A stretch of DNA of 61,995 bases from a virus. The stretch lies in the IMG/VR virus record IMGVR_UViG_3300037246_000486, positions 1-61,995 of that record; one strand, written 5' to 3'. The position numbers were made by a program, and so were the translations under genes. This document shows positions 2,295 to 60,464 of the stretch, in pieces (position 1 is the stretch's first letter; every line of letters starts with the position of its first letter). The notes beneath the pieces are model-generated. The model made no database searches and was not told where the DNA came from. It saw only the letters and a list, made by a program, of their open reading frames with translations.

Positions 2295-2295
2295 G

Positions 2296-2993: not shown

Positions 2994-3334
2994 TGCCCGC
3001 CCCGATCGTTGGAGACCTCGCTGACCTGATGGTCGATGTCCTCCGGGTCGAACGAAATACCGGGTCCGATGGGATGGGTGCCCGCACATACGACCCGCCC
3101 GCAAACTTTCAATGCCGCCTGGTGGGTGGACACGTTCAGGTACGAGGCACGGACGGCAAGGAGAAGGTGTCGACCGTCCAGTGCACCACGGCCGGTGCCT
3201 TCGGGTTCACCACGCAGGACCGCTTCACGTTGGTCCCCAGCGCGGGGACCTTTACTCCGTCCTCCCCGGAGTGTATCAACGTGAGGACGGTGCCGGACGA
3301 GAACGGCCCCCATCATCAAAAGCTGTTCTTCTAA
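2993..3334 (+). CDS. Head closure (stopper) protein
   Basis: A 113-residue beta-rich protein starting at an ATG that overlaps the preceding stop. The pattern DVLRVERNTGSDGMGARTYDPP followed by several strands is typical of phage head-completion or stopper proteins, which have a small SH3/OB-like barrel with an extended loop. It lies between the adaptor gene and the sugar cassette. After the cassette the tail-completion gene resumes the normal neck order. The final A of its stop is the first base of the aminotransferase start codon. Confidence 0.7.
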   Translation: MPAPIVGDLADLMVDVLRVERNTGSDGMGARTYDPPANFQCRLVGGHVQVRGTDGKEKVSTVQCTTAGAFGFTTQDRFTLVPSAGTFTPSSPECINVRTVPDENGPHHQKLFF

Positions 3335-4473: not shown

Positions 4474-5101
4474 GATCCAGGCACCCTACGGCACCGCCGA
4501 CCTGGACCAGCAACTGATCGACGAACACGTCACCGAGCTCCTGGCGGACTACGACTACCCCGGCCTGCCCGAGGACTTCTCCAACGGTCCCACCCTCTAC
4601 GACCCGGTGATCATATTGCGCCCGGAGAACCTGCGCATCAGTCTCACCGCCAGGCTTGACTCCTACTGCAAACTGGAGGTCGGGGACGGGATGGTGGTCG
4701 GGCACCATGTCCACGTCGCCTCCTTCGCCCACCTGGGCATCGGCGGTGGCGTCACCATCCTCGAGGACGGCACCAGCTTTGCCTCGGGGTCCAAGGTCAT
4801 GTCCGGCAGCAACGTCCCTGCCCGTGGCCGGAGCTGTTCCGCGGTGGCCCCCGGCAACCGGGTCGCGAGGTACATCACCCGGATCAAACGGAACGCCGTC
4901 CTGTTCGCCGGCGCCCAGGTCCTCCCCGGTGTGACCGTAGGCGAGAACGCTGTCATTGCTGCCGGCGCGATCGTTGTGTGCGACGTCCCATCCTTCGAGG
5001 TGTGGGGTGGCATCCCCGCCAGGAAGATCGGTGTGGACCTGGTCACCTCCGAACTGATCGACAAGGTTATTGAAGAAGATGAGCGAACCAGACTGGGTTG
5101 A
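4451..5101 (+). CDS. Left-handed beta-helix (hexapeptide) acyltransferase
   Basis: A 216-residue protein. Its C-terminal half carries hexapeptide repeats of the I/V-G-x-x-x-x type (GVTILEDGTSF, GAQVLPGVTVGENAVI, AAGAIVV) and ends with GGIPARKIG, the usual tail of sugar O/N-acyltransferases of the VatD/WbpD/NeuD kind. These enzymes use acyl-CoA and trimerise. The start at 4451 is chosen because GAGGAGG lies just upstream, inside the aminotransferase gene. The overlap implies coupled translation. The likely job is acylation of the amino sugar made by the preceding enzyme. Confidence 0.88.
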   Translation: MEDEDTNRIQAPYGTADLDQQLIDEHVTELLADYDYPGLPEDFSNGPTLYDPVIILRPENLRISLTARLDSYCKLEVGDGMVVGHHVHVASFAHLGIGGGVTILEDGTSFASGSKVMSGSNVPARGRSCSAVAPGNRVARYITRIKRNAVLFAGAQVLPGVTVGENAVIAAGAIVVCDVPSFEVWGGIPARKIGVDLVTSELIDKVIEEDERTRLG

Positions 5102-5873
5102 GGAGATGCTGGACTGGCATGGGATAGGCGACCCGCTGGCCCACGCGGTACCACCCGAGGAACGCCCGGGATACTACGGGCAACACAGTCACCCAATGAG
5201 GAGCGCACAAGACATGGCTAAGCAGCTACGTGATAAGGCAACCATCGAGGAACACTGGACCGCCATCCTAAAGGCGATCCCGTCCAGGGCGTTCCGCAAC
5301 CCGGCGTACCACCAGCCCTTCGGGTTCCGCCTGGGCCTGGCGGGCATGGCCCACCACATGAAGAACGAGGTCAGGTACCTCGAGGTCGGGTGCCGCCTGG
5401 GTCACAGCCTGGCAGTGGTATGCCTGGCGGCTGGCGACAACCTCAAGTCCGCCCATGCGGTGGACGTCTTCATCCAGGATTACGACAACGAGGACAACGC
5501 CAACCCCGAGCAGGTCCTGTCCTCCCTGGCGGACTGCAACATCAAGGACCTGACCCGGGTGACGATTCACGAGCAGGACAGCCACAAGTACTTGCGGACG
5601 CTGGCACGGGGGAAGGGCAAGCTCCGGTTCAACCTCATCTGCGTGGACGGGGATCACACCCTGACCGGCGCGCGCCAAGACCTCGAGGACTGTTTCGATC
5701 TCCTGGACGTCGGGGGCATCCTGGTGTTCGACGACGTGGTGGTCAAGGGCGACCGATCCCTACTGCGGGTGTGGCACGAGTTCCTGGGCGCCAAGCGGGA
5801 CTTCGTGGAGACCACCGAGGCGCTGGGCGATCACCCTGGGTGGGTGTCGTTGACGCGGGGTCGCCAGCAGTGA
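5079..5873 (+). CDS. SAM-dependent class I methyltransferase
   Basis: A 264-residue protein with a Rossmann-type methyltransferase core. Motif I is YLEVGCRLGHS, an acidic residue follows in AHAVDVFIQDYD, and motif IV-like NLICVDGDHTLTGARQDLE is followed by GGILVFDDVV. This arrangement matches the Methyltransf_24-type family often found in sugar-modification loci. A TTG three codons upstream (5070) is an alternative start. Its position between an acyltransferase and glycosyltransferases suggests O-methylation of a sugar or glycan, though the substrate cannot be read from sequence. Confidence 0.85.
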   Translation: MSEPDWVEEMLDWHGIGDPLAHAVPPEERPGYYGQHSHPMRSAQDMAKQLRDKATIEEHWTAILKAIPSRAFRNPAYHQPFGFRLGLAGMAHHMKNEVRYLEVGCRLGHSLAVVCLAAGDNLKSAHAVDVFIQDYDNEDNANPEQVLSSLADCNIKDLTRVTIHEQDSHKYLRTLARGKGKLRFNLICVDGDHTLTGARQDLEDCFDLLDVGGILVFDDVVVKGDRSLLRVWHEFLGAKRDFVETTEALGDHPGWVSLTRGRQQ

Positions 5874-6559
5874 TCCAGATCCTGTCCCTCTGGCGCAACG
5901 ATGCCACCTCGCATCTGATCAAGCGGGCGAATCACCTTCTCCACAAGACGTCGGAGCAGGGGGTGTCCTGGCTGTGGGGTGTGGGGGACTGCACCGACCA
6001 GACGGCAGCGCTCCTGGAAGCCCACGCGGCGCGCATGGTGGGCGATGTCCTGGTCCGGGTGGTCAACGTGGACACCGGCATCGTGGGGGAGGACGCGGCA
6101 ACCAGGCGGGCGCGTGGGTCTGCCTCGGCCTCCCAGCTGTTCCACCAACTGGATCCGCTGGCGGACTACGCCATGCTCCACGAGTCGGACCTGGTGTCGC
6201 CGGACAACGTGGCGGACGAACTACTGGCAGCAGGGGACGGTGTCCCGATGGCAGGGTGGCCTGTCATCCAGTTGAACGGGCGGTTCCAGTTCTATGACAT
6301 CTGGGCTTATCGGGACATGACCGGCAACCCGTTCCTCCCCGAGAAGCCGTACTCGCCCCAGTACACCCGGGTCGGACCGTTCCGTCTGCGGTCCTTCGGG
6401 TCGGTGTGGGTGATCCCTGCTGCTATACTGCGGGACCGAACCATCACCACCGAGGCGGTGGTGGAGCTATGCGGACAATGGGCCGCCGAGGGGATCGAAC
6501 TATGGTGCGACCCCCGGGTGTCCGTGGTGCAACCGGTGGAGTTATGGGAGGCGCAATGA
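5870..6559 (+). CDS. Glycosyltransferase-like protein (GT-A type, tentative)
   Basis: A 229-residue protein starting at a GTG that overlaps the methyltransferase stop (GTGA). It opens IQILSLWRNDA and later has LADYAMLHESDLVSPDNV, the position and character of a GT-A metal-binding acidic motif. RFQFYDIWAYRDMTG resembles the acceptor/donor loop of small-molecule glycosyltransferases. The downstream neighbour has the same layout (YVLYVESDLLWDP, then FYDVWGFRG), so the two are probably paralogues. Family assignment is by pattern and context only. Confidence 0.65.
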   Translation: MIQILSLWRNDATSHLIKRANHLLHKTSEQGVSWLWGVGDCTDQTAALLEAHAARMVGDVLVRVVNVDTGIVGEDAATRRARGSASASQLFHQLDPLADYAMLHESDLVSPDNVADELLAAGDGVPMAGWPVIQLNGRFQFYDIWAYRDMTGNPFLPEKPYSPQYTRVGPFRLRSFGSVWVIPAAILRDRTITTEAVVELCGQWAAEGIELWCDPRVSVVQPVELWEAQ

Positions 6560-7260
6560 AGATCCAGGTGGTGTCGGCGTTCCGCAACATGTCGGGACGG
6601 GTTCCCAAGTACTACCAGCAGGTCCACGCCCTGCGCGTGGCGTTCAACAGTCAGGTCGAGCTGGGGGTGGTCGCTTGCACCGGGGACAACGAGGACCGAA
6701 CCCGGGAGGAACTGCTGGTCCTGCAGAAGCACTTTGGGGTACCCACGACGATCGTGGACTACAGCCACGGGTGCCGGGACTGGGGGTCCACCGAGGAGGG
6801 GGAACGACTAGAGAAGCTGTCCGGTGTCCTGAACGCGGCGCTGGATGGCGTGGCACCGGATACCGACTACGTCCTCTATGTCGAGTCCGACCTGCTATGG
6901 GATCCGTATCAGGTCCACGACCTGGTGGCCGAGGTGGTTCGGGATCCTGTCACGTTCCCGGTGGTGGCCCCGCTGGTATATGCGGGTGAAGCCTTCTATG
7001 ACGTCTGGGGATTCCGGGGGACGGACGGCGAACGGTTCGCCCCGTTCCCGCCCTACCACTCGAGCCTCAAGGGCCTGGTGGACGAGGAGTGCGTCGTGGA
7101 GGTGTCCTCGGTGGGCAGCTGCATGGTGATGGCGGGCGTGGTCGCCCGGACTGTACGGTGCGAGAACGGCAACGCCCTGGTGGGCTGGTGCGAAGCCGCC
7201 CGGGCCGGTGGGTATCGAATCGGAGTGGCCCCGCACCTGCGGGTGGATCACCCAGCGTAG
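6556..7260 (+). CDS. GT-A-type glycosyltransferase
   Basis: A 234-residue protein with ATGA overlap and a GGGAGG ribosome site. It opens with MKIQVVSAFRNMSGR. The segment DTDYVLYVESDLLWDP provides the acidic metal/nucleotide-sugar motif expected in GT-A enzymes, and FYDVWGFRGTDGERF follows. The organisation resembles ANP1/MNN9-like or general GT-A folds. The related preceding gene suggests duplication. It probably acts in the cytoplasm on the phage glycan or on virion proteins during assembly. Confidence 0.7.
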   Translation: MKIQVVSAFRNMSGRVPKYYQQVHALRVAFNSQVELGVVACTGDNEDRTREELLVLQKHFGVPTTIVDYSHGCRDWGSTEEGERLEKLSGVLNAALDGVAPDTDYVLYVESDLLWDPYQVHDLVAEVVRDPVTFPVVAPLVYAGEAFYDVWGFRGTDGERFAPFPPYHSSLKGLVDEECVVEVSSVGSCMVMAGVVARTVRCENGNALVGWCEAARAGGYRIGVAPHLRVDHPA

Positions 7261-7269
7261 GAGCGGACC

Positions 7270-8163
7270 ATGTTGAGAGCATACGTGAAGGCCCCGGGTG
7301 TCCTGTCGCGTGCAATGCACCGGACGGCTGCGGCCCTTGAGCGGTACGCCCCTCCGGAAGTGGACATTGTGTACACGCCCCTGGCGGCGGACATGGAGGT
7401 ACTCCATACCATCGGGTACGCCGACCTGGTCCAGGAGGTGGAGCGGGTCAGGGCGGACGGCCACCGGTATGCCGTCATGCAGTACTGCCTTGCCAGTGCC
7501 GGGGCACCGGACATGCTGTCCTGGTTGCCACTATGGGAGAACAGCGTGGGGGTGTGGTCGTACTACGACCTGGTCGCCCACCTGATCGACGCCGGGGTCA
7601 ACGCGCCCACCGGGGGCTGGATGTACCACGCGCCTCTCGGGGTAGACAGCGACGTCTTCCACCGGGTGCCGTCCATGGCCCAGTACACCATCCTGACCAG
7701 TGGGTACGTCCCGGAGGCCGAGGGTGTCCTCGAGTGCCTGGACGCCGTCACCCAGACGGGTGGTCGGATGTTCCACCTCGGTCCCGAGGACAGTCGGTAC
7801 CCGGACAACGTGGACCAGCTACTGGGCATCGGGGACGAGGAACTGGCCAGGCGGTACAGCGCCTCCCGGTTCGTGTCGGGGCTGCGCCGGATCGAGGGGT
7901 TCGAGTTGCCGGCAGCGGAGGGTGTGGTGTGCGGTGCCCGCCCGGTCATGTTCGACCTCCCCTGCTATCGGGCCTGGTACCAGGACTTGGCCGAGTACGT
8001 TCCCGAGGGCACCCATGACGAGGTCACTGCGGCACTGGTCGATCTGTTTCAACAACCACCGAACCCGGTCACTGCGGACGAGATGGAGCAAGCACGGGAA
8101 CGGTTCAACTGGGAGACGCTGGCGGCCGGATTCTGGGCCCAGGTGTTGGAGGCAACAGCATGA
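7270..8163 (+). CDS. GT-B-type glycosyltransferase
   Basis: A 297-residue protein with a TAGGAG ribosome site. Features of a GT-B fold include a central APLGVDSDVFHRV segment (typical of GT4 enzymes, around residues 120-130), a following strand TILTSGYVPEAEG, and FELPAAEGVVCGARPVM, which corresponds to the EGF.L..lEaMA.G.PVv donor-binding region. The N-terminal domain is shorter than usual, so it is a compact family member. It overlaps the next glycosyltransferase by four bases. Confidence 0.78.
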   Translation: MLRAYVKAPGVLSRAMHRTAAALERYAPPEVDIVYTPLAADMEVLHTIGYADLVQEVERVRADGHRYAVMQYCLASAGAPDMLSWLPLWENSVGVWSYYDLVAHLIDAGVNAPTGGWMYHAPLGVDSDVFHRVPSMAQYTILTSGYVPEAEGVLECLDAVTQTGGRMFHLGPEDSRYPDNVDQLLGIGDEELARRYSASRFVSGLRRIEGFELPAAEGVVCGARPVMFDLPCYRAWYQDLAEYVPEGTHDEVTAALVDLFQQPPNPVTADEMEQARERFNWETLAAGFWAQVLEATA

Positions 8164-9335
8164 AGAAGCTGCTATGGATCGGGGACGCCGTCGTGGAGAC
8201 GGGGTTCAGTCGGGCAACCCACGAGATCCTGAATGTGCTGCGGCACACCTGGGACGTCAACGTACTCGGGCTCAACTACTGGGGTGACCCCCATGAGCTG
8301 CCGTACAAAGTCTGGCCGGCAGCCGAGGGGTTCAAGCGGGACGACCCCCACGGCAAGCGCAGGTGCGCCAGGTTGATCACCGAGTTGAAGCCGGACGTGG
8401 TGGTCCTACTCAACGACCCCTGGAACATCCCGGGGTACCTCGAGCGGGTGGGCAACATCCCGGCCGTGGGGTACATCGCGGTGGACGGGAAGAACTGCCG
8501 GGGCAACGAGCTCAACGGGTTGGCGTGCGCGGTCTTCTGGACGGAGTTCGCCCTGACCGAGGCGGCGAACGGTGGGTACCGTGGCAAGGGCACCGTCGTC
8601 CCCCTGGGTGTGGACCGCGAGGTGTACAGGCCCCGACCCCAGCTGGAGGCCCGGACACGCATCGGGTTGCCCACGGATCTGAACCAGGCGTTCATCGTGG
8701 GCAACGTCAACCGCAACCAGCCACGCAAGCGGTTCGACCTGACCATGAAGTACTTCGCCGCCTGGGTCCACGAGAACGACATCACGGACGCCTACCTGTT
8801 CCTCCATGTTGCCCCCACCGGGGACGACGCCTTGGACGTATCCCAGATGGCTCACTACCTGGGCATTGCCCGGTACGTCATTGCGGCCGCACCGGCTATC
8901 GGTTCGGGTATCTCGCAGGAGGCATTGTCTTGGACTTACAACGCCTTCAACGTCCAGGTCACCACGACCCAGGGCGAAGGCTTCGGGTTGACCACCCTCG
9001 AGGGCATGGCCTCGGGCATCCCGCAGATCGTTCCCGACTGGTCGGCGCTGGGTGAGATATGCGGGGACGCTGCCATCAAGGTGGCGTGCCCGACCACGGC
9101 AGCAACCCCGAACCGGATCAACGTCATCGGTGGCATCGCAGACGAGAGGAAATTCATCAAGGCTCTGGACCTGGTGTACCGGGACCACGACCTCTGCAAG
9201 GACATGGGTGCCAAGGGTATCGAGCTCGCTAGCCAGGACCGGTATGACTGGGAGAACATCGGGACGCTGTTCGGTAGCGTGCTAGACCAAACAACCACTG
9301 CGCGGGTCATGCAGGTGGGGGATGGCAAAAGCTAA
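8160..9335 (+). CDS. GT4-like glycosyltransferase (GT-B fold)
   Basis: A 391-residue protein with a full GT4 layout. The N-terminal domain starts KLLWIGDAVVETGFSR. A linker VVPLGVDREVYRP follows, then FIVGNVNRNQPRKRFDL (start of the C-terminal Rossmann domain) and the donor-site motif TTQGEGFGLTTLEGMASGIP, whose two glutamates seven residues apart are the family signature. It is the last gene of the sugar cassette and overlaps the tail-completion gene by 14 bases, so the cassette is embedded in the structural operon rather than separately terminated. Confidence 0.88.
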   Translation: MKKLLWIGDAVVETGFSRATHEILNVLRHTWDVNVLGLNYWGDPHELPYKVWPAAEGFKRDDPHGKRRCARLITELKPDVVVLLNDPWNIPGYLERVGNIPAVGYIAVDGKNCRGNELNGLACAVFWTEFALTEAANGGYRGKGTVVPLGVDREVYRPRPQLEARTRIGLPTDLNQAFIVGNVNRNQPRKRFDLTMKYFAAWVHENDITDAYLFLHVAPTGDDALDVSQMAHYLGIARYVIAAAPAIGSGISQEALSWTYNAFNVQVTTTQGEGFGLTTLEGMASGIPQIVPDWSALGEICGDAAIKVACPTTAATPNRINVIGGIADERKFIKALDLVYRDHDLCKDMGAKGIELASQDRYDWENIGTLFGSVLDQTTTARVMQVGDGKS

Positions 9336-35309: not shown

Positions 35310-35343
35310 GAATTCTTGTACCGACGACGAGGGAGGATGCGAG

Positions 35344-35718
35344 ATGGCGAAACGGCGACCAGCAGACCACGGTCCCCGCACCCGGGTGTACTACCAGGAG
35401 CTCGGGTACATGGTGGGCAAGGTCGACTGCACCGGGTCACGGCGACGGCCCTCCCACGACCTGTTCGGGTTCGCGGATCTCATCGGGTTCGCCACGGACG
35501 GGGACGGACTCGTCGTCGTGTTGATCCAACTGACCAACCGCAGCAGCCATGCCAAGCACAGGAACAAGATCCTCATGTCAACGAGGGCATACGAGGTCGT
35601 CCGCCGGTTCGGTGGGCGCGTGCGCATCGACCTGATCTCCTGGAAGATCATGGCGGGCGAACGGAAGTACACGCCCTGGGTCGAGGACATGAACCAGACG
35701 ATTATGGAACAACCATGA
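35344..35718 (+). CDS. PD-(D/E)XK nuclease-fold protein (Hjc/VRR-like)
   Basis: A 124-residue protein with a GGGAGG site. The core SHDLFGFADLIGFATDGDGL, VVLIQLTN and SHAKHRNKILMST, then VRIDLISW, matches the small PD-(D/E)XK layout with Asp, then (E/Q)-x-T replacing E-x-K, as in archaeal Hjc-like and related phage proteins. A Holliday-junction or restriction-like nuclease role is plausible. It is coupled by ATGA to the frame that contains the DpdA-like gene. Confidence 0.7.
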   Translation: MAKRRPADHGPRTRVYYQELGYMVGKVDCTGSRRRPSHDLFGFADLIGFATDGDGLVVVLIQLTNRSSHAKHRNKILMSTRAYEVVRRFGGRVRIDLISWKIMAGERKYTPWVEDMNQTIMEQP

Positions 35719-35771
35719 TCCTGTATCACTCGGGGCAGCTGGGTCACCGCAAGATTGAGGAGGTTATTAAC

Positions 35772-37028
35772 GTGATCATGTACCACTCGGGGAGCAAGGG
35801 ACGGCTGGCAGACGAGTCCCTGAAATTTCTACAGGCGGAGCTCGGCACCACCGGGTTGCCCACCGACATGGCGGCCATCATGTTGCAGGGCAGGTGCCGC
35901 CTTATCACCTACGCTGAGATCATCAACGAGACCCTGCTGATGAAAGAGGTGGAGGTCCTGATCGACATGCACCCGAAGCTGGCCCTGGACAGTGGGGCGT
36001 TTAGTGTCATGAACTCCGGCATCACCATCGACATCGACGTGTACGCCAAGTTCCTGAAAGAGCACGGGGGCATGTTCACCTGGTACGCCAACCTGGATGT
36101 CATACCGATCGACGACACCCATACGGTCGCGGCAGCGCAGGCGTCCCTGGACAACCTCCTCCACCTGGAGAACAACCACGGGCTGACACCGATGCCCATC
36201 TTCCACTTCGGGGAGCCAATCGAGTTCTTGGACAGGCTCCAGGAAGGACGGACGCACATCGGCCTGGGCGGACTGGTCGGGGTACCCCGGGCCTCACGCC
36301 TGCCGTGGTTGGAGACGGTGTTCGGGCATGTCAACGAGGGCGTGCGGGTCCACGGGTACGGCATCGGGGACGAGGTGATCCTGAAAGGTTTCCCCTGGCA
36401 TTCCATCGACTCCACGAACTGGCTCACCGCCTGCCGCTTCGGTACCTGGCCCCCGTTCCACTCGGGGATCTACACCCTCACCGCCCGAGTCCTGCCGTGG
36501 GTGGAGTACCTGGATGGGATGTGCGCGGCCCTCGACTCGGAGTACGAAGGCAAGGAGGACGAGGATCAGGCGTCCCTGTTCAAGACCACCAGCATGGACC
36601 GCACGCGCGAGCAGGGACCGCAGAACATCGGACCCGCCGCAGCGGTGTGGCCAGGGGACGACTTCGAGAAGGGCAAGCGTGCCGCCGACCTGATCGCCCA
36701 GGGACCACGACCCACCCCGAAGGTGGCGGTGAAGGTCCCACCCAGGAAGCCGCAGAGGACCAGGGCGGCGACCGCCCCCAGGCGTCGGACCAAGCCGGTG
36801 GCGGTGGTGGTACCTGTGAAGGTCCTGACCGATGAGGAGAAGGACCAGCGCCGACGGGACATGGACGCGCACCGCGCCCAGCAGATCGCCAAGGAGAAAG
36901 CAACCAAGCCCAAGCCGTTCGAGGACGCGGGCAAGCACGACGGGGTTCGGTGTACGTGCAGCCCACTTGGCCGGAACAACGAATGCCCCAGGCACGGGGT
37001 CAACGGGACGGAGGTCGGACATGCCTAA
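35772..37028 (+). CDS. dpdA: DpdA-like DNA 7-deazaguanine transglycosylase
   Basis: A 418-residue protein of the tRNA-guanine-transglycosylase/DpdA superfamily. These enzymes swap guanine for a 7-deazaguanine base. Barrel motifs in order: LALDSGAFSVMNSG (about 69-82), FTWYANLDVIPID, PIFHFGEP (about 145), THIGLGGLVG, VRVHGYGIGDE and PWHSIDSTNW. The tail is basic/Pro-rich and ends in a Cys/His cluster (CTCSPLGRNNECPRH). The GTG at 35772 has GAGGAGG nine bases upstream, so I prefer it. ATG 35715 gives 19 more residues and ATG 35778 is also possible. With QueC/D/E and FolE next door it should act on phage DNA. Confidence 0.82.
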   Translation: MIMYHSGSKGRLADESLKFLQAELGTTGLPTDMAAIMLQGRCRLITYAEIINETLLMKEVEVLIDMHPKLALDSGAFSVMNSGITIDIDVYAKFLKEHGGMFTWYANLDVIPIDDTHTVAAAQASLDNLLHLENNHGLTPMPIFHFGEPIEFLDRLQEGRTHIGLGGLVGVPRASRLPWLETVFGHVNEGVRVHGYGIGDEVILKGFPWHSIDSTNWLTACRFGTWPPFHSGIYTLTARVLPWVEYLDGMCAALDSEYEGKEDEDQASLFKTTSMDRTREQGPQNIGPAAAVWPGDDFEKGKRAADLIAQGPRPTPKVAVKVPPRKPQRTRAATAPRRRTKPVAVVVPVKVLTDEEKDQRRRDMDAHRAQQIAKEKATKPKPFEDAGKHDGVRCTCSPLGRNNECPRHGVNGTEVGHA

Positions 37029-39029: not shown

Positions 39030-39332
39030 ATGCCGGCATCGACGACGATGGCGGTGGACGCAGCGGTACGCTTGATCAGACTGCATGGGCCGTCCCGGGT
39101 AGTAATCGACAGGCACGCCCAGGCCGTCAGCCCGAAGCGGGCGCGGGAGCAGTATGGCATCACCCCGGACGTCATGTTCATCCGGGGCGATGGTTGGTCC
39201 CTGGGGGCCACGAACGAGATGGCGATGGTGGCATACAACACCTGGGCCGGGGACTGGGTGGGTGTCCTAACGTGGCCGGGCTACGCCGTCCACAGTGTTA
39301 GCGAGTGGCTAGAAAGGATGGACGATGTCTGA
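39030..39332 (+). CDS. Small hypothetical protein in the deazaguanine module
   Basis: A 100-residue protein between queD and queE with AAGGAGG eleven bases upstream. It is an alpha/beta protein (AVRLIRLHGPSRVVIDRHAQ, GDGWSLGATNEMAMVAYN). It overlaps the queE ATG by eight bases. Function unknown. Confidence 0.6.
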   Translation: MPASTTMAVDAAVRLIRLHGPSRVVIDRHAQAVSPKRAREQYGITPDVMFIRGDGWSLGATNEMAMVAYNTWAGDWVGVLTWPGYAVHSVSEWLERMDDV

Positions 39333-40026
39333 GGCAGCGTACCAGATCAACGAGATGTTCTACAGCGTCCAGGGGGAGGGCGTGCGGGCCGGCACGCCCA
39401 ACGTGTTCATCCGGTTCTCCGGGTGCAACATGGAGTGCCAACTGGAGGCGGGTCCGAAGAGCCCCGGGGGCTTTGACTGCGACACCGAGTTCGTGTCCGG
39501 CAAGGTCATGACCCTGGACCAGATCCACCGGGAGGCTATCCGTATCTCGGAGGAGTGGAACGGCCTGGAGGCGGAGGGCGAAGACGAACGGGTGCAGCTG
39601 TCCGATGGCAACAGGCCGTGGCAGATCCTGACCGGTGGTGAACCCGGGCTCCAGGTGGACATCTCCTACTGCGAGGTCATGCACCGCAAGGGCTGGAACC
39701 TCGCGATCGAAACTAACGGGTCCATCGACCTCCCGCACATCGGGACCGGGCAACTGGACGACTACATGCTGGACTGGATCACCGTCTCACCGAAGGTCGC
39801 GGAGCATGCGGTCCGCCAACTGGTGGCACACGAGGTGAAGTATGTCCGGGGTGCCGGTCAGGCCATACCGAAGCCCGCGTGTAACGCCAGGCACCAACTG
39901 ATCTCCCCGGCGTTCAACGGCATGGTCCTGGACCAGGACTCCATGGAGACGTGTCTCTGGTTGGTCAAGTGCAACCCGACCTGGCGGCTGTCCGTCCAGG
40001 CGCACAAGGCATGGAGGGTACGATGA
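39325..40026 (+). CDS. queE: 7-carboxy-7-deazaguanine synthase
   Basis: A 233-residue radical SAM enzyme forming the deazapurine ring from carboxytetrahydropterin. FYSVQGEGVRAGTPNVFIRF and SGCNMECQ hold Cys34 and Cys38; the third cluster Cys is Cys52 in GGFDCDTEF. That insertion between the second and third Cys is a known QueE variant. ILTGGEPGLQ (SAM/substrate), AIETNGS and a product-binding region near ITVSPK follow, as in the family. Confidence 0.93.
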   Translation: MSEAAYQINEMFYSVQGEGVRAGTPNVFIRFSGCNMECQLEAGPKSPGGFDCDTEFVSGKVMTLDQIHREAIRISEEWNGLEAEGEDERVQLSDGNRPWQILTGGEPGLQVDISYCEVMHRKGWNLAIETNGSIDLPHIGTGQLDDYMLDWITVSPKVAEHAVRQLVAHEVKYVRGAGQAIPKPACNARHQLISPAFNGMVLDQDSMETCLWLVKCNPTWRLSVQAHKAWRVR

Positions 40027-51924: not shown

Positions 51925-51978
51925 TCGACTGGTGATTGTGCCCTCCATAATCATCCCGGGATCGTGGGCTAGCAGCAC
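51925..51978 (+). promoter_or_regulatory. Promoter-like repeat L2
   Basis: TCGACT (51925-51930), 15 bases and CATAAT (51946-51951) lie in an identical GCCCTCCATAATCATC (51940-51955), again followed by GGATC...TAG.CAGCAC (51959-51978). It lies about 170 bases before the terL start and 152 bases after L1. Confidence 0.55.
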
Positions 51979-52147
51979 GTATTCTGACCCCGCCAGGGTG
52001 ACAGTATCAGGGCGGTACGTGGACGCCTGGGGTCGGCACATTGAGAGGTCGAGGCGTCGAGACGGTATCGACTGCTCGAACGGCTCTGTCCGGTACTGGG
52101 ACGGTCCCCGTTGCCATTGCTGTCCTTCCAAGGTGTACCCTACCGAC

Positions 52148-53620
52148 ATGCCGGCACAAGCCACCATGACCCGAACCGAGTTCCACCACGAGCTGTCCCT
52201 GGTCCAGGGCAAGCTTGCCAAGGTGGAGCTCTACGAGTTCGTGAAGGCGGTCTGGCCCATCGTGGAACCGACCCAGTCATTCGTGGACAACTGGCACATC
52301 CGCCTAATCTGCGAGCAGCTCGAAGCGGTGACCCGTGGGGAGATTAAGAACCTCATCATCAACGTGCCGCCCGGGTGCATGAAGTCCCTGCTGGTGTCGG
52401 TCATGTGGCCGGCGTGGGAGTGGGCCTCGGACGACAGCAGGCGGTACCTGAAGGCGAGCTACGGTCAGGACCTGGCGAACCGGGACAACGTCAAGGTCCG
52501 GGACATCGTTCAGTCGGCTTGGTACCAGAGCCTGTTCGGTGTCCGGTTCAGGGGTGAGACCAACCGCAAGGAGAAGTTCGAAACCGAAGGTAAGGGCTGG
52601 GCCATCGCCACGTCCGTCGGTGGGCGTGGTACCGGGGAGCACCCGGACGTCATCATCATTGACGACCCGACCTCGGCAGACCAGGCCAGGTCCGACAAGT
52701 ACCGCAAGCGGGCGAACGACTGGTACACCCAGACACTGTCCACCAGAGGCGTGGCCCGGGACGTGGCAACCGTCATCATCATGCAGCGCCTCCACGAGAA
52801 GGACCTCACCGGGTACCTCATGGACCAGGACGAGAATGGGGAGTGGGTCCACCTGTGCCTGCCCATGCAATACGAGACTTCGCGCGAGTCGGACCCCGAC
52901 TGGCAACCGGACCCGCTGGACCCCAGGACCGAACCTGGCGAACTACTGTGGCCGGACCTGTTCACCCACAAGAAGGTCCGCAAGCTGACCCTGGTCCTCG
53001 GTCCCTACGGTGCGGCCGGACAGCTGCAACAGAGACCGGCCCCCGAGGGTGGTGGCCTGTTCAAGCGGGACTGGTTCGAGATCGTGGAGCACGCACCGAA
53101 GGACGTCCTTATCAGGGTGCGGGGCTGGGACATCGCCGGCACCGAGGCATGGGAGAACCCGGACGCCGACTGGACCGCGGGCGTCCTTATCTCCATGACA
53201 CGCGAGGGGACCTTCTACGTCGAGGACGTGGTGTACGACCAGCTGTCCGAGGACGGGGTGAACCGCCTAATGAAGCAGACCGCCAAGCTGGACGGCCGGT
53301 CTGTCCTGCAACGCGAGGAGCGGGAGGGTGGGTCCAGCGGCAAGGCCGTGACCAGGGCGCGGGCACGCCTACTGCGGGGGTTCGACTACGCCGAGGTCAT
53401 TGTCAACAAGGCGGACAAGGTGGGACGAGCCCGACCACTCCGAGGTCAGGCAGAGGCGCGCAACGTGAAGCTGGTGGCCGGACTGTGGAACCGCAGGTAC
53501 CTGGACGAGTTGGCGGTGTTCCCAACGGGGGAGCATGACGACCAGGTGGACGGCAGCAGCTGTGCATTCAACGCGATCATTGACGAGGAGCCCGGTGCCG
53601 AGGGCCTGATGCTATGGTAA
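52148..53620 (+). CDS. terL: Terminase large subunit
   Basis: A 490-residue packaging motor. The ATPase has an N-terminal adenine-binding/FVDNWHIRLICEQLEAV segment, Walker A NVPPGCMKSLL (about residues 68-80), Walker B VIIIDDP (about 168-174) and a coupling-motif region near VIIMQRLHEKDL. The RuvC-like nuclease domain includes RVRGWDIAGTEAW, then DADWTAGVLIS, and GEHDDQVDGSSCAFN with the terminal acidic residues. The ATG at 52148 is chosen; 52169 is possible, and upstream frame extension enters the repeat-rich non-coding region. The ribosome site is weak (AAGGTG). Confidence 0.93.
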   Translation: MPAQATMTRTEFHHELSLVQGKLAKVELYEFVKAVWPIVEPTQSFVDNWHIRLICEQLEAVTRGEIKNLIINVPPGCMKSLLVSVMWPAWEWASDDSRRYLKASYGQDLANRDNVKVRDIVQSAWYQSLFGVRFRGETNRKEKFETEGKGWAIATSVGGRGTGEHPDVIIIDDPTSADQARSDKYRKRANDWYTQTLSTRGVARDVATVIIMQRLHEKDLTGYLMDQDENGEWVHLCLPMQYETSRESDPDWQPDPLDPRTEPGELLWPDLFTHKKVRKLTLVLGPYGAAGQLQQRPAPEGGGLFKRDWFEIVEHAPKDVLIRVRGWDIAGTEAWENPDADWTAGVLISMTREGTFYVEDVVYDQLSEDGVNRLMKQTAKLDGRSVLQREEREGGSSGKAVTRARARLLRGFDYAEVIVNKADKVGRARPLRGQAEARNVKLVAGLWNRRYLDELAVFPTGEHDDQVDGSSCAFNAIIDEEPGAEGLMLW

Positions 53621-53633
53621 AAACAGGGACACC

Positions 53634-55025
53634 ATGACTGACAAAGTAAGCGGAGACGGATGGGGATTCAGGAGTCTGGCCAGCGCCCTCGCCAACCGGA
53701 TCGGCCTGGCCAACGCAGCAGGCATATCCTACGGGGGCGAGCGGGACCTATACAAGGCACTCGGTTACAAGCGTGAGCTCACACCCGAGGACTACCGCAC
53801 CCGGTACGACCGGGGTGAGGTGGCCGGCAGGGTGGTGGATGCCAAGCCCCGGTCCACCTGGTCCGACGGCTTCGAGATCGTAGACGACCAGCAGCCGGAC
53901 GTGGAGACAGCCCTGGAGAAGGCGTGGAAGGAGATGGCCATCCGGTTGGACGTGGTGTCCCGGTTCCAGCGCGCGGACATCCTGGCGGGACTGGGCCAGT
54001 TCAGTTGCCTGCTGATCGGGGCACCTGGCGAACTGGACCAGGAGCTCGGCACGGTGACCGCCGAGCAGGTGGTGTTCCTCCAACCGTTCAGCCAACGGGA
54101 CATCACCGTGAAGCAGACCGAGGGCGACCTGGAGGACGCGAGGTTCGGACTGCCCGTGCTGTACGAGTTCCAGAGGATCGGTGCCAAGACCACCGGGTCG
54201 GGGCGGTCCAGTAAGTCGGCGATGGTGCACTGGACGCGGGTCATCCACATCGCGGACAACCTCCTGGACGACGACATCCTGGGGCAGCCCAGACTGCGCA
54301 GGGTGTGGAACCGCATTGACGACATCGACAAGGTCGCAGGCGGTGGGGCGGAGGCGTTCTGGGTCCGGGCCAACCCTCCGACCATCGTGTCCATCGACAA
54401 GGACCTGAAGATCACCCCGGACGATAAGGCGGACCTGAAGTCCCAGATGGACGAGCTGGTCAACAACATGCGGCGGTACGTGGCAGGTCGGGGCCTGGAG
54501 GTCAACCAGCTGGCCATGTCGGTGGCGGACATCAAGGGACCGGTGGACACCCTCATGACCCTGGTTGCCGTGGGGTCCGATACCCCGAAGCGTATCCTCA
54601 TGGGTTCGGAGCAGGGCGTCCTGGCGGCGAGCAAGGATAAGGACAACTGGGACAACGTCATTACGACCAGGCGGACACAGTTCGCCGAGCCCCAGGTGGT
54701 GCGGCAGTTCATCGATAGGATGATCGACCACAAGGCCCTACCCCCGGCAACCGAGGACATGTACGAGGTACGCTGGCCGGACATCGAGGCCCTGAACGAC
54801 GTGGAGGCAGCCGAGGTTGGCAAGGCATGGGCTGGTATCAACCGGGAGTTCGGGGCGACCGTTGTCACCGAGGACGAGATCCGCACGCGGGTCCTGAACC
54901 TGCCGCCCCTGGAAGAAGTGACCGACGAAGACGCGGACCAGATGATTGATGACAACACACCCGAGGACGTGGAGGACGAGGACACGCCCCCGGAAGAAGG
55001 CGACGACCCGAGTCTCACGGAGTAG
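53634..55025 (+). CDS. Portal protein
   Basis: A 463-residue protein of the DUF1073-type/SPP1-like portal group. YTYGGERDLYKALGYKRE-like spacing appears here as YGGERDLYKALGYKR. YRTRYDRGEVAGRVVDAKPR, then WSDGFEIVDD, then a core with VHWTRVIHIADNLLDDDILG and LRRVWNRIDDIDKV follow. GSDTPKRILMGSEQGVLAAS, then KDNWDN, is the characteristic portal crown/stem region. The acidic tail ends the protein. It forms the dodecameric DNA channel and follows terL as expected. Confidence 0.9.
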   Translation: MTDKVSGDGWGFRSLASALANRIGLANAAGISYGGERDLYKALGYKRELTPEDYRTRYDRGEVAGRVVDAKPRSTWSDGFEIVDDQQPDVETALEKAWKEMAIRLDVVSRFQRADILAGLGQFSCLLIGAPGELDQELGTVTAEQVVFLQPFSQRDITVKQTEGDLEDARFGLPVLYEFQRIGAKTTGSGRSSKSAMVHWTRVIHIADNLLDDDILGQPRLRRVWNRIDDIDKVAGGGAEAFWVRANPPTIVSIDKDLKITPDDKADLKSQMDELVNNMRRYVAGRGLEVNQLAMSVADIKGPVDTLMTLVAVGSDTPKRILMGSEQGVLAASKDKDNWDNVITTRRTQFAEPQVVRQFIDRMIDHKALPPATEDMYEVRWPDIEALNDVEAAEVGKAWAGINREFGATVVTEDEIRTRVLNLPPLEEVTDEDADQMIDDNTPEDVEDEDTPPEEGDDPSLTE

Positions 55026-55028: not shown

Positions 55029-56945
55029 GTGGCCATAGCAACCGAACCAGAGTGGCGCGCGCTACACCGCGCAGCCGACGCCAACGTCCCCGTCATTGAG
55101 CGTATCGTCCTGAAGGCTCTGCTGGCGGCCCAGGCGGGGTCCGACCTCAATGCCATCGCCGACTCGGTGGAGGCAGGCGGTGGGGTGGTACTGGGGAAGG
55201 TGTTTGCCGGGGCGGACGAGGCGGACCGCATCATGGCCGAGGAACTACCTGCGGTCCTCCTGGCCACCCTGGAGGCGGGCGCCTTTGCGAGCGCGAGGTT
55301 CTACCGTCGGCAGGGTGGGTTCCTCCCCGACGATCCCATCGACCAGGAGTCGGTCATAGGTGACGGACCGGTCGACGTCCTGGCACCGGTGGCGTCAGCC
55401 GAGGGTGGTGTGTCCTCGGTGTTCATCCCACCGAGCGGGGACCTCCCGGGGTTCGCCCTGTCCCCGGACTTCTTGGTCACCAACCCCGAGAGCGTGGCGT
55501 GGGCCAACGACTTCGGCAGCAGGCAGATCGTCCAGATCAGCAACGAGACCCGGCGTGCCATCCGGGAACTGATCTCCCAGGCGTTCGTGGACGGTGTCCC
55601 ACCTGCCAAGGCGGCACGCGCCATCCGGGACCAGATCGGTCTGACCAGGTTCCAGGAGAGGGCGGTACGCAACCTCGCCAGGGAGATGAAGGGTCGGCAG
55701 CGTGGCGTGGTCCGCAGGTTCGGCAAGCAGTTCGGTGCCAAGGTCCCGCAGGGTGGGTACAACACGGTCCAGATCCAGGCAGCGACCAAGCGGTACGGCA
55801 AGAGGTTGCTCCGGTCCAGGGCGCTCACCATCGCCCGCACCGAGACACTGGCAGCAGCCAACGAGGGGCAACGTCAGCTCTGGTTGCAGGCACGGAAGGC
55901 TGGGGCCCTCCCGGCACACCTGGTCAAGGAGTGGATCATCACTCCGGACGACGACCTCTGTCCGGTATGCCGTGGGATGATCGGACAGCAACGGGAACTG
56001 GACAAGCCGTTCAACACGGGACGGTTCGGACCGGTCATGAGCCCGCCCGCCCATCCCAGGTGCCGCTGCGCCCAGGGTCTGGCGCGTCCCAAGAAGGCCA
56101 AGAAGGACAGGACGACCCGCCCGGCAGAGACGCCCCTCGAGGCACGACGTCGCGCGCTGTCCTCCGGGCAACTGAAGGGCGGACCCTCCGACCGACTGGA
56201 GGGGTCCATCAACGACGTGCGCATACTGCGTGTCCTGGACGACCAGGGTGACGAGGTCGCAGGGTACTGGAAGCCGAACAACCCGGGGCAGGTTGGACCG
56301 GGCGAGTCGGTGGACCCGGACATCGTCTTCTTCCACCAGCAGACCACGGGAGGGGCAGCGTCCTGGGGCGAGCGTGAAGTCCTAGCCTCCGACATTGACC
56401 AGCTGTGGGGGACCAACCTGGTCCCGACCACGGTTCACCGGACGGTGGACGACATCGTCGGGTCCATCCAGGAGGGCGTGAAGAACGCCAAGACATACGC
56501 CACGGTACGGGGCACCCCGATAGTGAACGAGGTCACCGCCGAGCAGTGGTTGGACCTCACCGTGTACGACATGGTGATCGGCAACGTGGACCGGCACGGG
56601 GGCAACCTCATGCTCCAACGTGCAGCCGATGGGACGGTACGCCTGGTCGCCATCGACAACGGGCTGTCCTTCGTCCCCAACTTCGCGTTTGAGAAGCTGC
56701 GCGACCCGACCGTCCAGGAGGAGGCGTTCAAGTGGATCCAGGGTCGCTGGATGAGCAAGGACCAGACGGCGAAGTGGGTGGCCCGGTTGGAGGACCCCAA
56801 GTTCTTCGAGCTCATTGGCAAGTCCAACCTGTCAGCACAGCAGAAGGCGGATGCGATACAGCGGGCAGCAGACATCCGGTTTGAACTCATCAACGAAGAC
56901 GGGAATTTCTGGGGCCTCATGTCGGAGTTCCTGGACGTACGCTAA
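55029..56945 (+). CDS. Head morphogenesis protein fused to a FAM20/PI3-4-kinase-like domain
   Basis: A 638-residue protein with a GTG start. Residues about 1-345 are a Mu gpF/SPP1 gp7-like minor head protein: helices, then RALTIARTETLAAANEGQRQ, VKEWIITPDDDLCPVCRGMI and PPAHPRCRCAQ. Residues about 385-638 carry kinase-fold hallmarks: GYWKP (Lys415), GEREVLASDIDQLWG (Glu448/450 helix), LVPTTVHRTVDD, GSIQEGV (hinge region), then MVIGNVDRHGGNLML (Asp521, Asn526) and LVAIDNGLSF (Asp543). All catalytic positions are present, so an active phosphotransferase packaged in the head is possible. The fusion is unusual. Confidence 0.85.
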   Translation: MAIATEPEWRALHRAADANVPVIERIVLKALLAAQAGSDLNAIADSVEAGGGVVLGKVFAGADEADRIMAEELPAVLLATLEAGAFASARFYRRQGGFLPDDPIDQESVIGDGPVDVLAPVASAEGGVSSVFIPPSGDLPGFALSPDFLVTNPESVAWANDFGSRQIVQISNETRRAIRELISQAFVDGVPPAKAARAIRDQIGLTRFQERAVRNLAREMKGRQRGVVRRFGKQFGAKVPQGGYNTVQIQAATKRYGKRLLRSRALTIARTETLAAANEGQRQLWLQARKAGALPAHLVKEWIITPDDDLCPVCRGMIGQQRELDKPFNTGRFGPVMSPPAHPRCRCAQGLARPKKAKKDRTTRPAETPLEARRRALSSGQLKGGPSDRLEGSINDVRILRVLDDQGDEVAGYWKPNNPGQVGPGESVDPDIVFFHQQTTGGAASWGEREVLASDIDQLWGTNLVPTTVHRTVDDIVGSIQEGVKNAKTYATVRGTPIVNEVTAEQWLDLTVYDMVIGNVDRHGGNLMLQRAADGTVRLVAIDNGLSFVPNFAFEKLRDPTVQEEAFKWIQGRWMSKDQTAKWVARLEDPKFFELIGKSNLSAQQKADAIQRAADIRFELINEDGNFWGLMSEFLDVR

Positions 56946-56957
56946 GGTGTGTGACGT

Positions 56958-57197
56958 ATGGAACTACAATTCATAGAGACACCGATCGGTGGGCCAGCCC
57001 TACCGCTCGGGACCATCGCCCTGGTGGACGGGGTACTGGTGGCCGAGGCGTCCGTGGTGTGGGCGCTCGAGTCCCCGGTGGGTTTCCCCGACGCCATTGA
57101 CCCGGAGACCGAACCCGTGGCCTGGTTGAAGCAGGCGCAGATCACCTACTCCGGTTCGAACATGCGGGCAGTACTCAAGGGAGACGCCGATGACTGA
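56958..57197 (+). CDS. Small hypothetical protein in the head operon
   Basis: A 79-residue beta-rich protein (MELQFIETPIGGPALPLGTI, VLVAEASVVWALESP). It overlaps the protease start by eight bases. Function unknown; perhaps a minor head component. Confidence 0.65.
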   Translation: MELQFIETPIGGPALPLGTIALVDGVLVAEASVVWALESPVGFPDAIDPETEPVAWLKQAQITYSGSNMRAVLKGDADD

Positions 57198-58884
57198 ACG
57201 TGTACTGCGGCACCTACGCCTGGGTGTCCAGGCGAACACCGCAGAGATCCGCATGGCGCAGTTCCAGGGTCGGGAGCACATCGTTGCCCCGGTGGTCATG
57301 TTGAAGGTAGGTGTCATCTGGCCGTCCAACTCCCCCATGCCGGAGCTGGTCACCCTGGAGTCCTTCGCCCGTAGCCCGGGGGCGTGGAACAACGAGCCGG
57401 TCCTATGGGACCACCCTCCCGAGTCCGCAGGTATGCCGGGCATCATGGAGACGATGGCGTTCGGCCAGGTGTTCAACGCGCACGTCGACGAGGACCGCCT
57501 GATAGCGGAGGTGTGGCTGGACCCGCTGCGGGCAATGGAACTGGGTGGGCATGCGCAGCGTTCGGTGGAACGGATCCTCGCAGGCGAGATGCAAGAGGTG
57601 TCTGTGGGGGCGTTCGTCGAGTACCTGGCGAAGGCGGGGACGTTCAAGGGCAAGGCGTACGGTCGCTCATGGCTGCGGGCCTTCCCCGACCACCTGGCGC
57701 TACTCCCGGAGACGGTGGAAGGCGCCTGCTCCAACGAGATGGGCTGTGGTGTACCCCGCGCAGCCTCGGCCAAGACCGTCTTCTATTCCTACGACCAACC
57801 CACCGAGACGCTATTGCATACGGGGACGGACAATGGCACACTCCCGTCACCAGGCGTCATGGAGGGTCATACCAACGAGGTGCCCATGACGATCCTGAAG
57901 ACCCTACGCGAGCGGTTCAAGGAGCTTGGTAGGTTCGTGAGTCTACAGGGCGAAGAAGGCATGTCAGACGTCGACCTTCGCCAGGTACTAGACGCGGCAC
58001 TGCGCGCCACCGAACCCGGGTTCCTGGGTGTGGAAGCTGTCTTCACCGAAAGCTCAAGCGTGGTCTTCGCAGTTGCCCCCGAGGAAGTTGTCGCCTGGTT
58101 CTCCCAGGCATTCACGATCGCCGATTCCGGCGAGGTCACGTTCAGCGACCGGGAAGAGGTTGCACCCGTGACAAGGTTCGAACCCGTCGGAGCAACCACG
58201 GCAAGCGCGTCCTGTGACTGCGACGCTGCCACCGGCACCAGCCAAGAAGAAGGAGACACCGAGATGGATGAGCGTATCAAGGCACTCATCGCCAACACCG
58301 GCACGCCGTACACCGAGGCGGACGCCGTGTGGATGGCAGGCATCCCCGAAGACCGCCTGGCCGCCCTCGAGGCAGCTTACGCCGAGGCCGAGGGTACCGG
58401 AGACACCGGGGACACCGACACCGGGGACACCGGGGACACCGACACCGGGGACACCGACACCGGTGACCAGGGAGACGGCACCGAGGACAAGGACAAGGAC
58501 GTGGATGGCGACGGCGATGCCGGCGACACCACCGAGCTGTCCGCAGCCAAGCCCCCGACCTGGGACGAGGTACTGGCGTCCGCCCCCGCGCACATGCGCC
58601 GGCGGTTCGCCGAGATGGAGGCGGACGAGAAGGCGGAGCACGATGCCCTCGTCACTTCGTTGTCCAAGGTCCAGGACGTGTTCAGCGTGGCACAGCTTCA
58701 GGACAAGGACCTCCCCGAGCTCCGGCAGTTGTCGCAGTTGACGACCCCGGCCGGTACCGACACGCCGATCACAGCCATCAACTATGGCGCGCGAGGTGTG
58801 GCGAACCGGGTGGAAGGGACGCCCAAGGTGGCCCCGAAGCCCCCGAGTCTCTTGGAGGCCGTGAAGGCGCGGAAGGCCAGCTAG
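57190..58884 (+). CDS. Capsid maturation protease with scaffold-like C-terminus (DUF2213-like)
   Basis: A 564-residue protein. Residues 1-190 hold the protease domain: an N-terminal strand set, NNEPVLWDHPPESAGMPG with the likely active-site His, and AGEMQEVSVGAFVEYL with the Ser, as in DUF2213/U35-type prohead proteases. From about 350 it is an acidic scaffold-like region with a repeat of G-D-T-D-T units (DNA 58399-58467). A helical tail follows (EMEADEKAEHDALVTSLSKV). Protease-scaffold fusion is common: the scaffold shapes the prohead and is then degraded. Confidence 0.82.
   Translation: MTERVLRHLRLGVQANTAEIRMAQFQGREHIVAPVVMLKVGVIWPSNSPMPELVTLESFARSPGAWNNEPVLWDHPPESAGMPGIMETMAFGQVFNAHVDEDRLIAEVWLDPLRAMELGGHAQRSVERILAGEMQEVSVGAFVEYLAKAGTFKGKAYGRSWLRAFPDHLALLPETVEGACSNEMGCGVPRAASAKTVFYSYDQPTETLLHTGTDNGTLPSPGVMEGHTNEVPMTILKTLRERFKELGRFVSLQGEEGMSDVDLRQVLDAALRATEPGFLGVEAVFTESSSVVFAVAPEEVVAWFSQAFTIADSGEVTFSDREEVAPVTRFEPVGATTASASCDCDAATGTSQEEGDTEMDERIKALIANTGTPYTEADAVWMAGIPEDRLAALEAAYAEAEGTGDTGDTDTGDTGDTDTGDTDTGDQGDGTEDKDKDVDGDGDAGDTTELSAAKPPTWDEVLASAPAHMRRRFAEMEADEKAEHDALVTSLSKVQDVFSVAQLQDKDLPELRQLSQLTTPAGTDTPITAINYGARGVANRVEGTPKVAPKPPSLLEAVKARKAS
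58399..58467 (+). repeat. Tandem repeat encoding Gly-Asp-Thr units
   Basis: About 70 bases built from GGGGACACCGACACC-type units inside the protease-scaffold gene. They encode an acidic low-complexity linker of GDTDT type. The repeat number is likely variable between relatives. Confidence 0.8.
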
Positions 58885-59453: not shown

Positions 59454-60464
59454 ATGCAGGGAATTGACAATGGCCAGACCTTCTACGACAGCGCATCGGG
59501 TCGCTGGGCGGGGGAGCGTTTCCTGGCTGCGTTGAACGAGGGGCGCCCCATTACGCCCGCCGAGCTTCGCACCTTGGACACTCTCCGGCACGAGGAGTGG
59601 ATCCACTTCGACAACGTGCTGATCGAGGAAGGGCAGATCCGTCTGCGGGGTATCGCGGACATCATGGGGGCGGGCCTCACCATCCCGGTCCCGAACGCGA
59701 TGGGCAAGACGGTGGTGCAGTACGAGAAGGCCACCGACATGGAGCCGGCCATCCTCAGCCTGGACCCGAACGTCCGGAGCAAGAAGGACCGGGTGGAGTT
59801 CGTCCCGGGCCAAATTCCGATGCCCGTTATCCACAAGGACTTCGACCTGAACATCCGCACGCTGGCTGCGTCGCGGACCACGGGCGAGCCCTTGGACACC
59901 ATGCAGGCCCGCGTGGCTGCACGGTTGTGCTCGGAGCGTCTGGAGGCCCTTCTGTTCCAGGGCACCACGGCCACGTTCGGCAACCTGCCGATCTACGGGT
60001 ACATCACGCACCCGGATCGCAACACGTCGGCGTTCGGTACGAACGGTTCGTGGGACGAGACTGCCAAGACCGGTGAGAACATCCTGGACGATGTCCTCAC
60101 CATGAAGGCAGCCCTCCACGTCGACCGGTTCTACGGTCCCTACTGGATCTATGCCCCGGCGGACGCGGCCACGAAGTTGGACGACGACTTCAAGGCCAAC
60201 TCGGACAAGACCATCAAGCAGCGCATCATGGAAGTCGATGGTGTCCAGAACGTCCAGGTCGCCGACCAGCTGCCGACCGACCACGTCATCATGGTGCAGG
60301 CCACGCAGGATGTGACCGCGCTCCTAGACGGCGAGGGTTTGCAGACCATCCAGTGGGACATCAACGGTGGCATGACCGTCGCGTTCAAGGCGTTCATGAT
60401 CCAGGTCCCCCTGATCCGCAGTGACGTCGAGAAGCGCTCCGGCCTTTTCGACATGACCGGCTAG
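59454..60464 (+). CDS. Major capsid protein
   Basis: A 336-residue protein of HK97/encapsulin-like fold. The N-terminal arm is helical (GERFLAALNEGRPITPAELR). It then has DTLRHEEWIHFDNVLIEEGQ, a beta-rich E-loop region, VPIPVIHKDFDLNIRTL-type P-domain strands (here FVPGQIPMPVIHKDFDLNIR), ARLCSERLEALLFQG (spine helix) and an A-domain ending MTVAFKAFMIQVPLIRSDVE. The pattern is like the linocin/encapsulin family. The position after protease and decoration genes, and a strong AGGAG site, fit. Confidence 0.87.
   Translation: MQGIDNGQTFYDSASGRWAGERFLAALNEGRPITPAELRTLDTLRHEEWIHFDNVLIEEGQIRLRGIADIMGAGLTIPVPNAMGKTVVQYEKATDMEPAILSLDPNVRSKKDRVEFVPGQIPMPVIHKDFDLNIRTLAASRTTGEPLDTMQARVAARLCSERLEALLFQGTTATFGNLPIYGYITHPDRNTSAFGTNGSWDETAKTGENILDDVLTMKAALHVDRFYGPYWIYAPADAATKLDDDFKANSDKTIKQRIMEVDGVQNVQVADQLPTDHVIMVQATQDVTALLDGEGLQTIQWDINGGMTVAFKAFMIQVPLIRSDVEKRSGLFDMTG

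Follow-up and report, generated by a model that had tools for sequence, protein, structure and literature searches.

A PI4K/FAM20-type kinase domain on a phage MuF head protein, linked to a small partner gene: a candidate head-delivered effector

The stretch of viral DNA analysed here, referred to below as the window, comprises 61,995 nucleotides, positions 1 to 61,995 of IMG/VR record IMGVR_UViG_3300037246_000486. Its head-gene cluster contains a minor head protein with a kinase domain at its C terminus, followed by a small partner gene, in the following arrangement:

51932-53620, plus strand: terminase large subunit (Terminase_6C, E = 8e-10; phrog_38, E = 6e-87)
53634-55025, plus strand: portal protein of the DUF1073/Phage_portal_3 type (Pfam, E = 2e-24; phrog_146, E = 7.5e-57)
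55029-56945, plus strand: MuF minor head protein with C-terminal kinase domain, 638 amino acids, GTG start (Pfam, PHROGs)
55752-56072, plus strand: MuF domain, residues 242-348 (Phage_Mu_F, E = 1.9e-8)
56084-57179: linker, kinase and partner gene, the cassette that appears exchanged relative to the contig L003 (blastn blocks stop at 56083 and restart at 57180)
56181-56942, plus strand: kinase domain, about residues 385-638 (Pfam PI3_PI4_kinase; AlphaFold2 model matched to PI4KII by Foldseek; invariant residues)
56271-56273, 56589-56591 and 56655-56657, plus strand: codons of the kinase residues K415, D521 and D543, respectively
56958-57197, plus strand: 79-amino-acid partner open reading frame (ORF), proposed cognate inhibitor or immunity protein (family conserved beside kinases; AlphaFold2 pLDDT 93.6)
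57190-58884, plus strand: DUF2213-like protein, probable protease/scaffold (weak DUF2213 match, E = 1.3e-3)
59454-60464, plus strand: major capsid protein (DUF6260/Linocin; phrog_771, E = 6e-19)

The kinase-bearing gene lies directly behind the portal gene, and a small decoration-type gene stands between the DUF2213-like gene and that of the major capsid protein. Because a relative's contig (L134, 7949-9524) joins the end of the window to its start, the window is probably a circularly permuted genome. No match to a tyrosine integrase (PF00589) or serine resolvase (PF00239) was found in the record, which may be incomplete. Elsewhere, a glycosyltransferase-like gene (8160-9335) and an aminotransferase-like gene (3112-4473) lie ahead of the tape-measure gene, and a queuine tRNA-ribosyltransferase-like gene (35316-37028) together with a QueE-like gene (39325-40026) suggests 7-deazaguanine DNA modification.

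The initial annotation had read 55029-56945 as a kinase-like domain fused to a minor head protein, and profile searches recover both halves within the one 638-residue frame. PHROGs assigns residues 12-362 to head morphogenesis (E = 5e-34), Phage_Mu_F matches above its Pfam cut-off, and PI3_PI4_kinase matches residues 510-553 (E = 6e-7, 30.1 bits against a cut-off of 27.1). HipA_2 and Fam20C are weak Pfam matches, and the domain is not assigned to the HipA family by profile, HipA_2 scoring 14.4 bits against a cut-off of 27. The PADLOC candidates PDC-M03A also gave weak matches, with the window protein at E = 3e-5 at best.

A FAM20/PI3-4-kinase/HipA-like fold had been predicted for the C-terminal region, and structure comparison agrees. 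The AlphaFold model of residues 378-638 (pLDDT 78.8, pTM 0.82), which includes several helices in the C-lobe, has PI4KII-alpha as its best solved match in Foldseek (E = 1.3e-9, prob 1.00, TMq 0.59), followed by Helicobacter pylori CtkA and, lower, by FAM20C and HipT. By sequence alone, a profile of 21 phage kinases searched against the PDB returned PI4KII (4.6e-10), FAM20B (1.2e-6) and CtkA (5e-4), with FAM20A and FAM20C also present. Across these 21 divergent domains K415, E450, G518, N519, D521, R522, H523, G525, N526 and D543 are invariant, so that the ATP-binding lysine, the helix glutamate, the catalytic aspartate and the metal-binding aspartate are all present and conserved; the catalytic motifs DRHxxN and DNG align to NTDR and IDNGLAFP of PI4KII. 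Most of the landmarks originally picked out by eye therefore hold, including Lys415, Asp521, Asn526 and Asp543; for the helix glutamate, where two positions had been named, E450 is conserved and E448 is not. Thus neither an unrelated fold nor variation at Lys415, Asp521 or Asp543, the two outcomes named beforehand as arguing against a kinase, was observed. A chance origin of the kinase motif is ruled out by the fold, the profile and the invariance across 21 sequences and, because the catalytic set is invariant, we see no reason to call the domain a pseudokinase. Purifying selection is evident in the pair L006 and L008, with dN 0.22 and dS 1.50 for the kinase and dN 0.17 and dS 0.44 for the partner. 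Judged by its modelled fold and conserved residues, the domain belongs to the PI3/PI4K-FAM20-HipA kinase superfamily, and phosphotransfer is its predicted activity.

Members of this fold need not all be protein kinases. SelO and SidJ are kinase folds with other chemistry, and the top fold and profile match of the window domain is a lipid kinase, PI4KII, which would suit a domain that carries out AMPylation or glutamylation, binds nucleotide without transfer or acts on a phosphoinositide. We regard such chemistry as very improbable, given that the canonical catalytic and metal residues are all intact and invariant, that FAM20 and CtkA are protein kinases and that phosphoinositides are, to our knowledge, not known from most bacteria. 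Phosphorylation by the FAM20, CtkA and HipA relatives is directed at proteins, which makes a protein the likelier target here than a lipid.

Two features were absent from the initial annotation, which had captured the fusion, the fold and the catalytic residues: the partner gene and the exchange of the cassette. The partner ORF begins 12 nt past the kinase stop codon and overlaps the start codon of the next gene. Its family comprises proteins of about 80-100 amino acids with a beta-rich start carrying the pattern G-[TS]-[IL]-x-L-x-D-G and a C-terminal end resembling D-P-E-x-[FW]-L-x-x-L-P-x-x-Y-S-G-S-Y-L-R-A; the window's own member has SGSN where the family has SGSY. The partner, modelled with the high pLDDT given above, has no Pfam family, no PDB profile match and no significant Foldseek match. 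A HipS-like identity, considered for a short beta-rich protein beside a kinase, was rejected for lack of any profile or fold match, and by the same Pfam, PDB and Foldseek searches the window kinase has no HipB-type or HipS-type partner.

Several observations tie this family to the kinase. First, we applied a profile built from 26 members to 15,163 small six-frame ORFs from all loci. All 55 matches, a count that includes duplicate copies of the same virus, adjoin a kinase: 49 lie within 200 nt of the kinase ORF on the same strand, another five sit downstream at about 371 nt, and the last is immediately downstream on the opposite strand. Cross-validation found 23 of the 26 members held out, each beside its kinase. 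Second, because nearly every locus had been fetched through a kinase, we also scanned from the partner side: a DNA pattern for the partner motif hit five loci, four of them with true members, all adjoining kinases, and one new (L130); L132 was discarded as a chance match of the pattern. Third, a kinase fused to MuF, one fused to other phage domains and one standing alone all usually have the partner immediately downstream; among 20 pairs checked, the genes share a four-base overlap of the ATGA type in eight, and a purine-rich stretch precedes the partner start in 16. Where kinases occur in tandem, L058 and L060 carry one partner gene per kinase, and L087 has one located between its two kinases. 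Fourth, kinase and partner distances correlate (Mantel r = 0.48, p = 2e-4), a correlation that shared descent alone could cause.

On a strict count the partner is present beside 34 of 79 kinases, and beside 19 of the 26 that are MuF fusions. Several further partners are visible by eye (for example in L066, L076 and L077), where the limits on ORF length or the threshold excluded them; some kinases do seem to have no partner gene. Two or three related kinase genes occur per locus in L058, L060, L082, L087, L094, L107 and L124.

Exchange of the kinase together with its partner is indicated by comparison with L003, the contig of a near relative that matches the window over most of 19.8 kb. The DNA on both sides of the cassette is 91-94% identical, compared with about 50% nucleotide identity within it, and the partner gene lies inside the exchanged block. 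At the protein level, terminase, portal, MuF residues 1-367, the DUF2213-like protein, the decoration protein and the major capsid protein are 90-97% identical; MuF itself is at 94% and the kinase at 36%. Diversifying selection alone is ruled out as the source of the kinase divergence because synonymous sites are far more diverged too, with a dS of 1.17 in the kinase versus 0.10-0.27 outside the cassette. We conclude from these alignments that 56084-57179 behaves as a cassette exchanged between phages. It is one of two variable islands between the window and L003, the other running from 60996 to the window end and through 1-3384. In a more distant relative, L004, whose MuF domain is 32% identical, the kinase slot holds instead a C-terminal domain with an HExxH motif (HEYGH, read by eye; 5941-7488). 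That domain is metalloprotease-like.

The cassette boundaries bear on the possibility that the kinase serves particle assembly, phosphorylating capsid, scaffold or its partner (at the conserved Ser or Tyr of the C-terminal YSGSY-like motif) to regulate maturation. The gene does lie between those for the portal and the scaffold and major capsid protein, and the small co-encoded protein frequently carries a Y-x-G-S-Y motif. The window's own partner, however, departs from that motif, the kinase has been exchanged while capsid, portal and scaffold remain 90-97% identical, and the kinase is found with many unrelated head systems and on bacterial WXG100-like proteins, as described below. We consider a role in assembly improbable.

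Because scans with single proteins reached little beyond the same virus, adding only L003-L005 and L039, wider sampling relied on motif and profile scans. A DNA pattern for IGNxDRHGGN and a profile-guided scan yielded most of 69 non-redundant viral loci, which were chosen by the kinase alone except for L003 (found through its MuF domain) and L002 (the window's own virus); the viral sample consists of IMG/VR contigs matching tight patterns. Among 60 non-redundant viral kinase proteins, which came from the kinase-motif scans apart from two relatives identified through MuF, Pfam matched MuF in 19, portal families in five and minor capsid 2 in one, as match counts that may overlap. The MuF-kinase fusion is not unique to the window phage. 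Zeta toxin, ADP-ribosyltransferase (ART) and 2H phosphoesterase domains also occur among these proteins. In L010, portal, Hint, 2H phosphoesterase and kinase share one 1683-amino-acid frame (1796-6844); L027 joins a zeta toxin to the kinase and L025 a minor capsid 2 domain. For 11 of the 43 kinases without MuF in the same protein, a MuF match lies in the flanking DNA, and portal families are common among the neighbours of such kinases.

By profile, a related kinase domain is also present in a cultured archaeal virus, HHTV-1 (Haloarcula hispanica), whose gp13 (1100 amino acids; L129, 9436-12738) additionally bears two HExxH motifs and sits between gp12, a probable portal by position and length, and an annotated gpF-like gene. 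By fold, a protein of the Mycobacterium phage Onyinye is likewise a relative. Among 50,697 phage records, tblastn of the kinase domains from the window, L036 and L025 gave no match, and that of the L011 and L041 domains matched only a single unannotated faecal contig. Large proteins of up to 2974 amino acids in L009, L015, L016 and L034 end in the same kinase family, with no head domain identified.

The kinase profile also matches 274 of 297 sampled genomes of the actinobacterial class of G001, mostly once. In five genomes tested the usual stand-alone match is TIGR03843 (for example G372:C284:3785-4504), a relative of the phage kinase that, unlike it, is a stand-alone chromosomal gene, mostly of about 250-350 amino acids, with no partner gene detected in the tested loci. 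G001 (an Actinophytocola) and G493 each have an additional match that is far stronger, located in ORFs of 530 and 728 amino acids. In both, a partner member lies at the end of the kinase, overlapping it or following it; its profile match is weak (E = 0.003 and 1e-4) but it is clear by eye. In G493 a WXG100 match lies inside the same 728-residue ORF, at a whole-genome E of 0.005 that is below the cut-off; in G001 such matches flank the kinase match on both sides, at distances of up to about 2 kb. An occurrence of kinase and partner on WXG100-like ORFs would be the behaviour of polymorphic toxins, in which one toxin-antidote module is combined with several delivery N termini. In 289 genomes of the class of G003 the partner was not found, in a search without a positive control.

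These carriers help to weigh a further reading, in which the kinase is delivered with the DNA but serves host takeover or counter-defence without being toxic, as with T7 gp0.7 or the P1 Dar proteins, and the partner, rather than an immunity protein, would be a chaperone or loading factor maintaining the kinase in a folded or inactive state until packaging. The phage may be virulent, with no lysogens to protect, given that its record matched neither an integrase nor a resolvase; head-attached DarA/Hdf of P1 is missing from heads that have lost their DNA (PMC12810830); and the 2H-phosphoesterase, zeta-toxin and ART domains with which the kinase genes occur are known from polyvalent host-takeover proteins (PMC5512222). 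Nonetheless, the same kinase and small gene on actinobacterial WXG100-like proteins argue for a toxin-antidote pair over a phage-assembly factor, and we hold the takeover reading to be unlikely.

On balance, we think it probable that the window encodes a kinase effector of the polymorphic-toxin type, delivered from the virion head and paired with a cognate small inhibitor. The N-terminal part is an ordinary MuF minor head protein, expected at the portal inside the capsid, and the C-terminal 250 residues, a kinase of PI4KII/FAM20/CtkA type, would accompany the DNA into the infected cell and there phosphorylate a host target, which would be arrested or reprogrammed. During late expression, the 79-residue downstream protein would keep the kinase inactive in the virion-producing cell. 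Kinase and partner would form a module that passes between phages as a unit and is combined also with portal proteins, WXG100-like actinobacterial proteins and kinase genes that stand alone. Computation supports the domain architecture, the fold, the conserved catalytic residues, the cassette exchange and the partner family with its tight linkage; from these we infer packaging, injection, catalysis, a target, toxicity and inhibition. An injected effector and capsid phosphorylation had both been proposed originally; the former is now the better supported because the C-terminal slot is swappable, has its own small partner gene and reappears on other carriers, namely portal proteins, proteins with zeta-toxin, 2H-phosphoesterase or ART domains and WXG100-like actinobacterial proteins.

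The inhibitory role proposed for the 79-residue protein is drawn by analogy with other MuF toxins. For the two studied ones, Bxa and Apk2, adjacent small immunity proteins neutralise the toxin, and one type does so by binding the enzyme and blocking it (PMC11699363); a small ORF usually follows MuF toxin genes (PMC5576092). MuF toxins are reported from temperate phages (PMC5576092), and entry together with the DNA has been hypothesised for them. As neither integrase nor resolvase was found in the window's record, classical lysogen immunity may not apply here. A broader claim, which we regard as evenly poised, is that these genes represent a widespread and undescribed kinase-antidote module, a PI4K/FAM20-type kinase toxin with a single dedicated family of small inhibitors lacking a fold match, carried by phage head proteins for injection and by WXG100-like proteins of bacteria for secretion, and swapped between phages as a cassette.

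Were the kinase packaged and injected, phages would be bringing ready-made phosphotransferases into play from the very start of infection. Studies of phage kinases are very few, and among the kinases named in the literature surveyed none is described as capsid-carried. The proposed explanation, if true, would add a kinase class to the MuF toxins and make the targets of virion-borne effectors testable by phosphoproteomics, with the partner as a direct handle, a small protein expected to switch the kinase off. In the literature searched, outside which most subscription journals and preprints fall, we found no description of a PI4K/FAM20-type kinase fused to MuF or portal, or of the partner family. 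Names of this kind do appear on some database proteins, among them a phage protein labelled as having a PI3/4-kinase domain; these annotated single cases have, as far as our literature search reached, been studied nowhere.

Among known systems, the MuF polymorphic toxins (Apk2, Bxa and the EFV toxin; PMC5576092, PMC11699363, PMC12226406) are closest in architecture, having a MuF N terminus in the head cluster, a variable C-terminal enzyme and a small ORF directly downstream. The window likewise has MuF in the head cluster, C-terminal exchange relative to L003 and a small downstream ORF of the immunity type, its neutralising function being putative. It differs in that its C-terminal domain is a PI4K/FAM20-type kinase, not found among the MuF toxin domains described in the text surveyed, in that its partner belongs to one recognisable family across very diverse kinases, and in that the phage has no detectable integrase. 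As set out in the accessible portions of two surveys (PMC5576092, PMC5512222), MuF toxins and polyvalent proteins include nucleases, ARTs, alarmone synthetases, zeta toxin and a different kinase type.

The polyvalent proteins of phages and conjugative elements similarly mount enzymes on MuF or portal for delivery, among them kinases, zeta toxin, 2H and ART; in the accessible text their kinases are of a Ser/Thr/Tyr type that has lost the C-lobe, with no mention of a PI4K/FAM20-type kinase or partner gene (PMC5512222). By contrast, the window kinase best matches PI4KII and FAM20 and is predicted to retain C-lobe helices. The closest solved folds and profiles, type II PI4-kinases, FAM20 kinases and H. 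pylori CtkA, are cellular enzymes, unlike the virion protein proposed here. Finally, Gratiaviridae carry a HipA-superfamily kinase gene in the head cluster, between portal and major capsid protein; the available part of that study discusses it as a late-expressed superinfection-immunity factor and does not discuss MuF fusion, a partner or virion delivery (PMC8008677). If our explanation is true, it suggests another reading for this orphan HipA-type kinase between the portal and capsid genes of gut phages.
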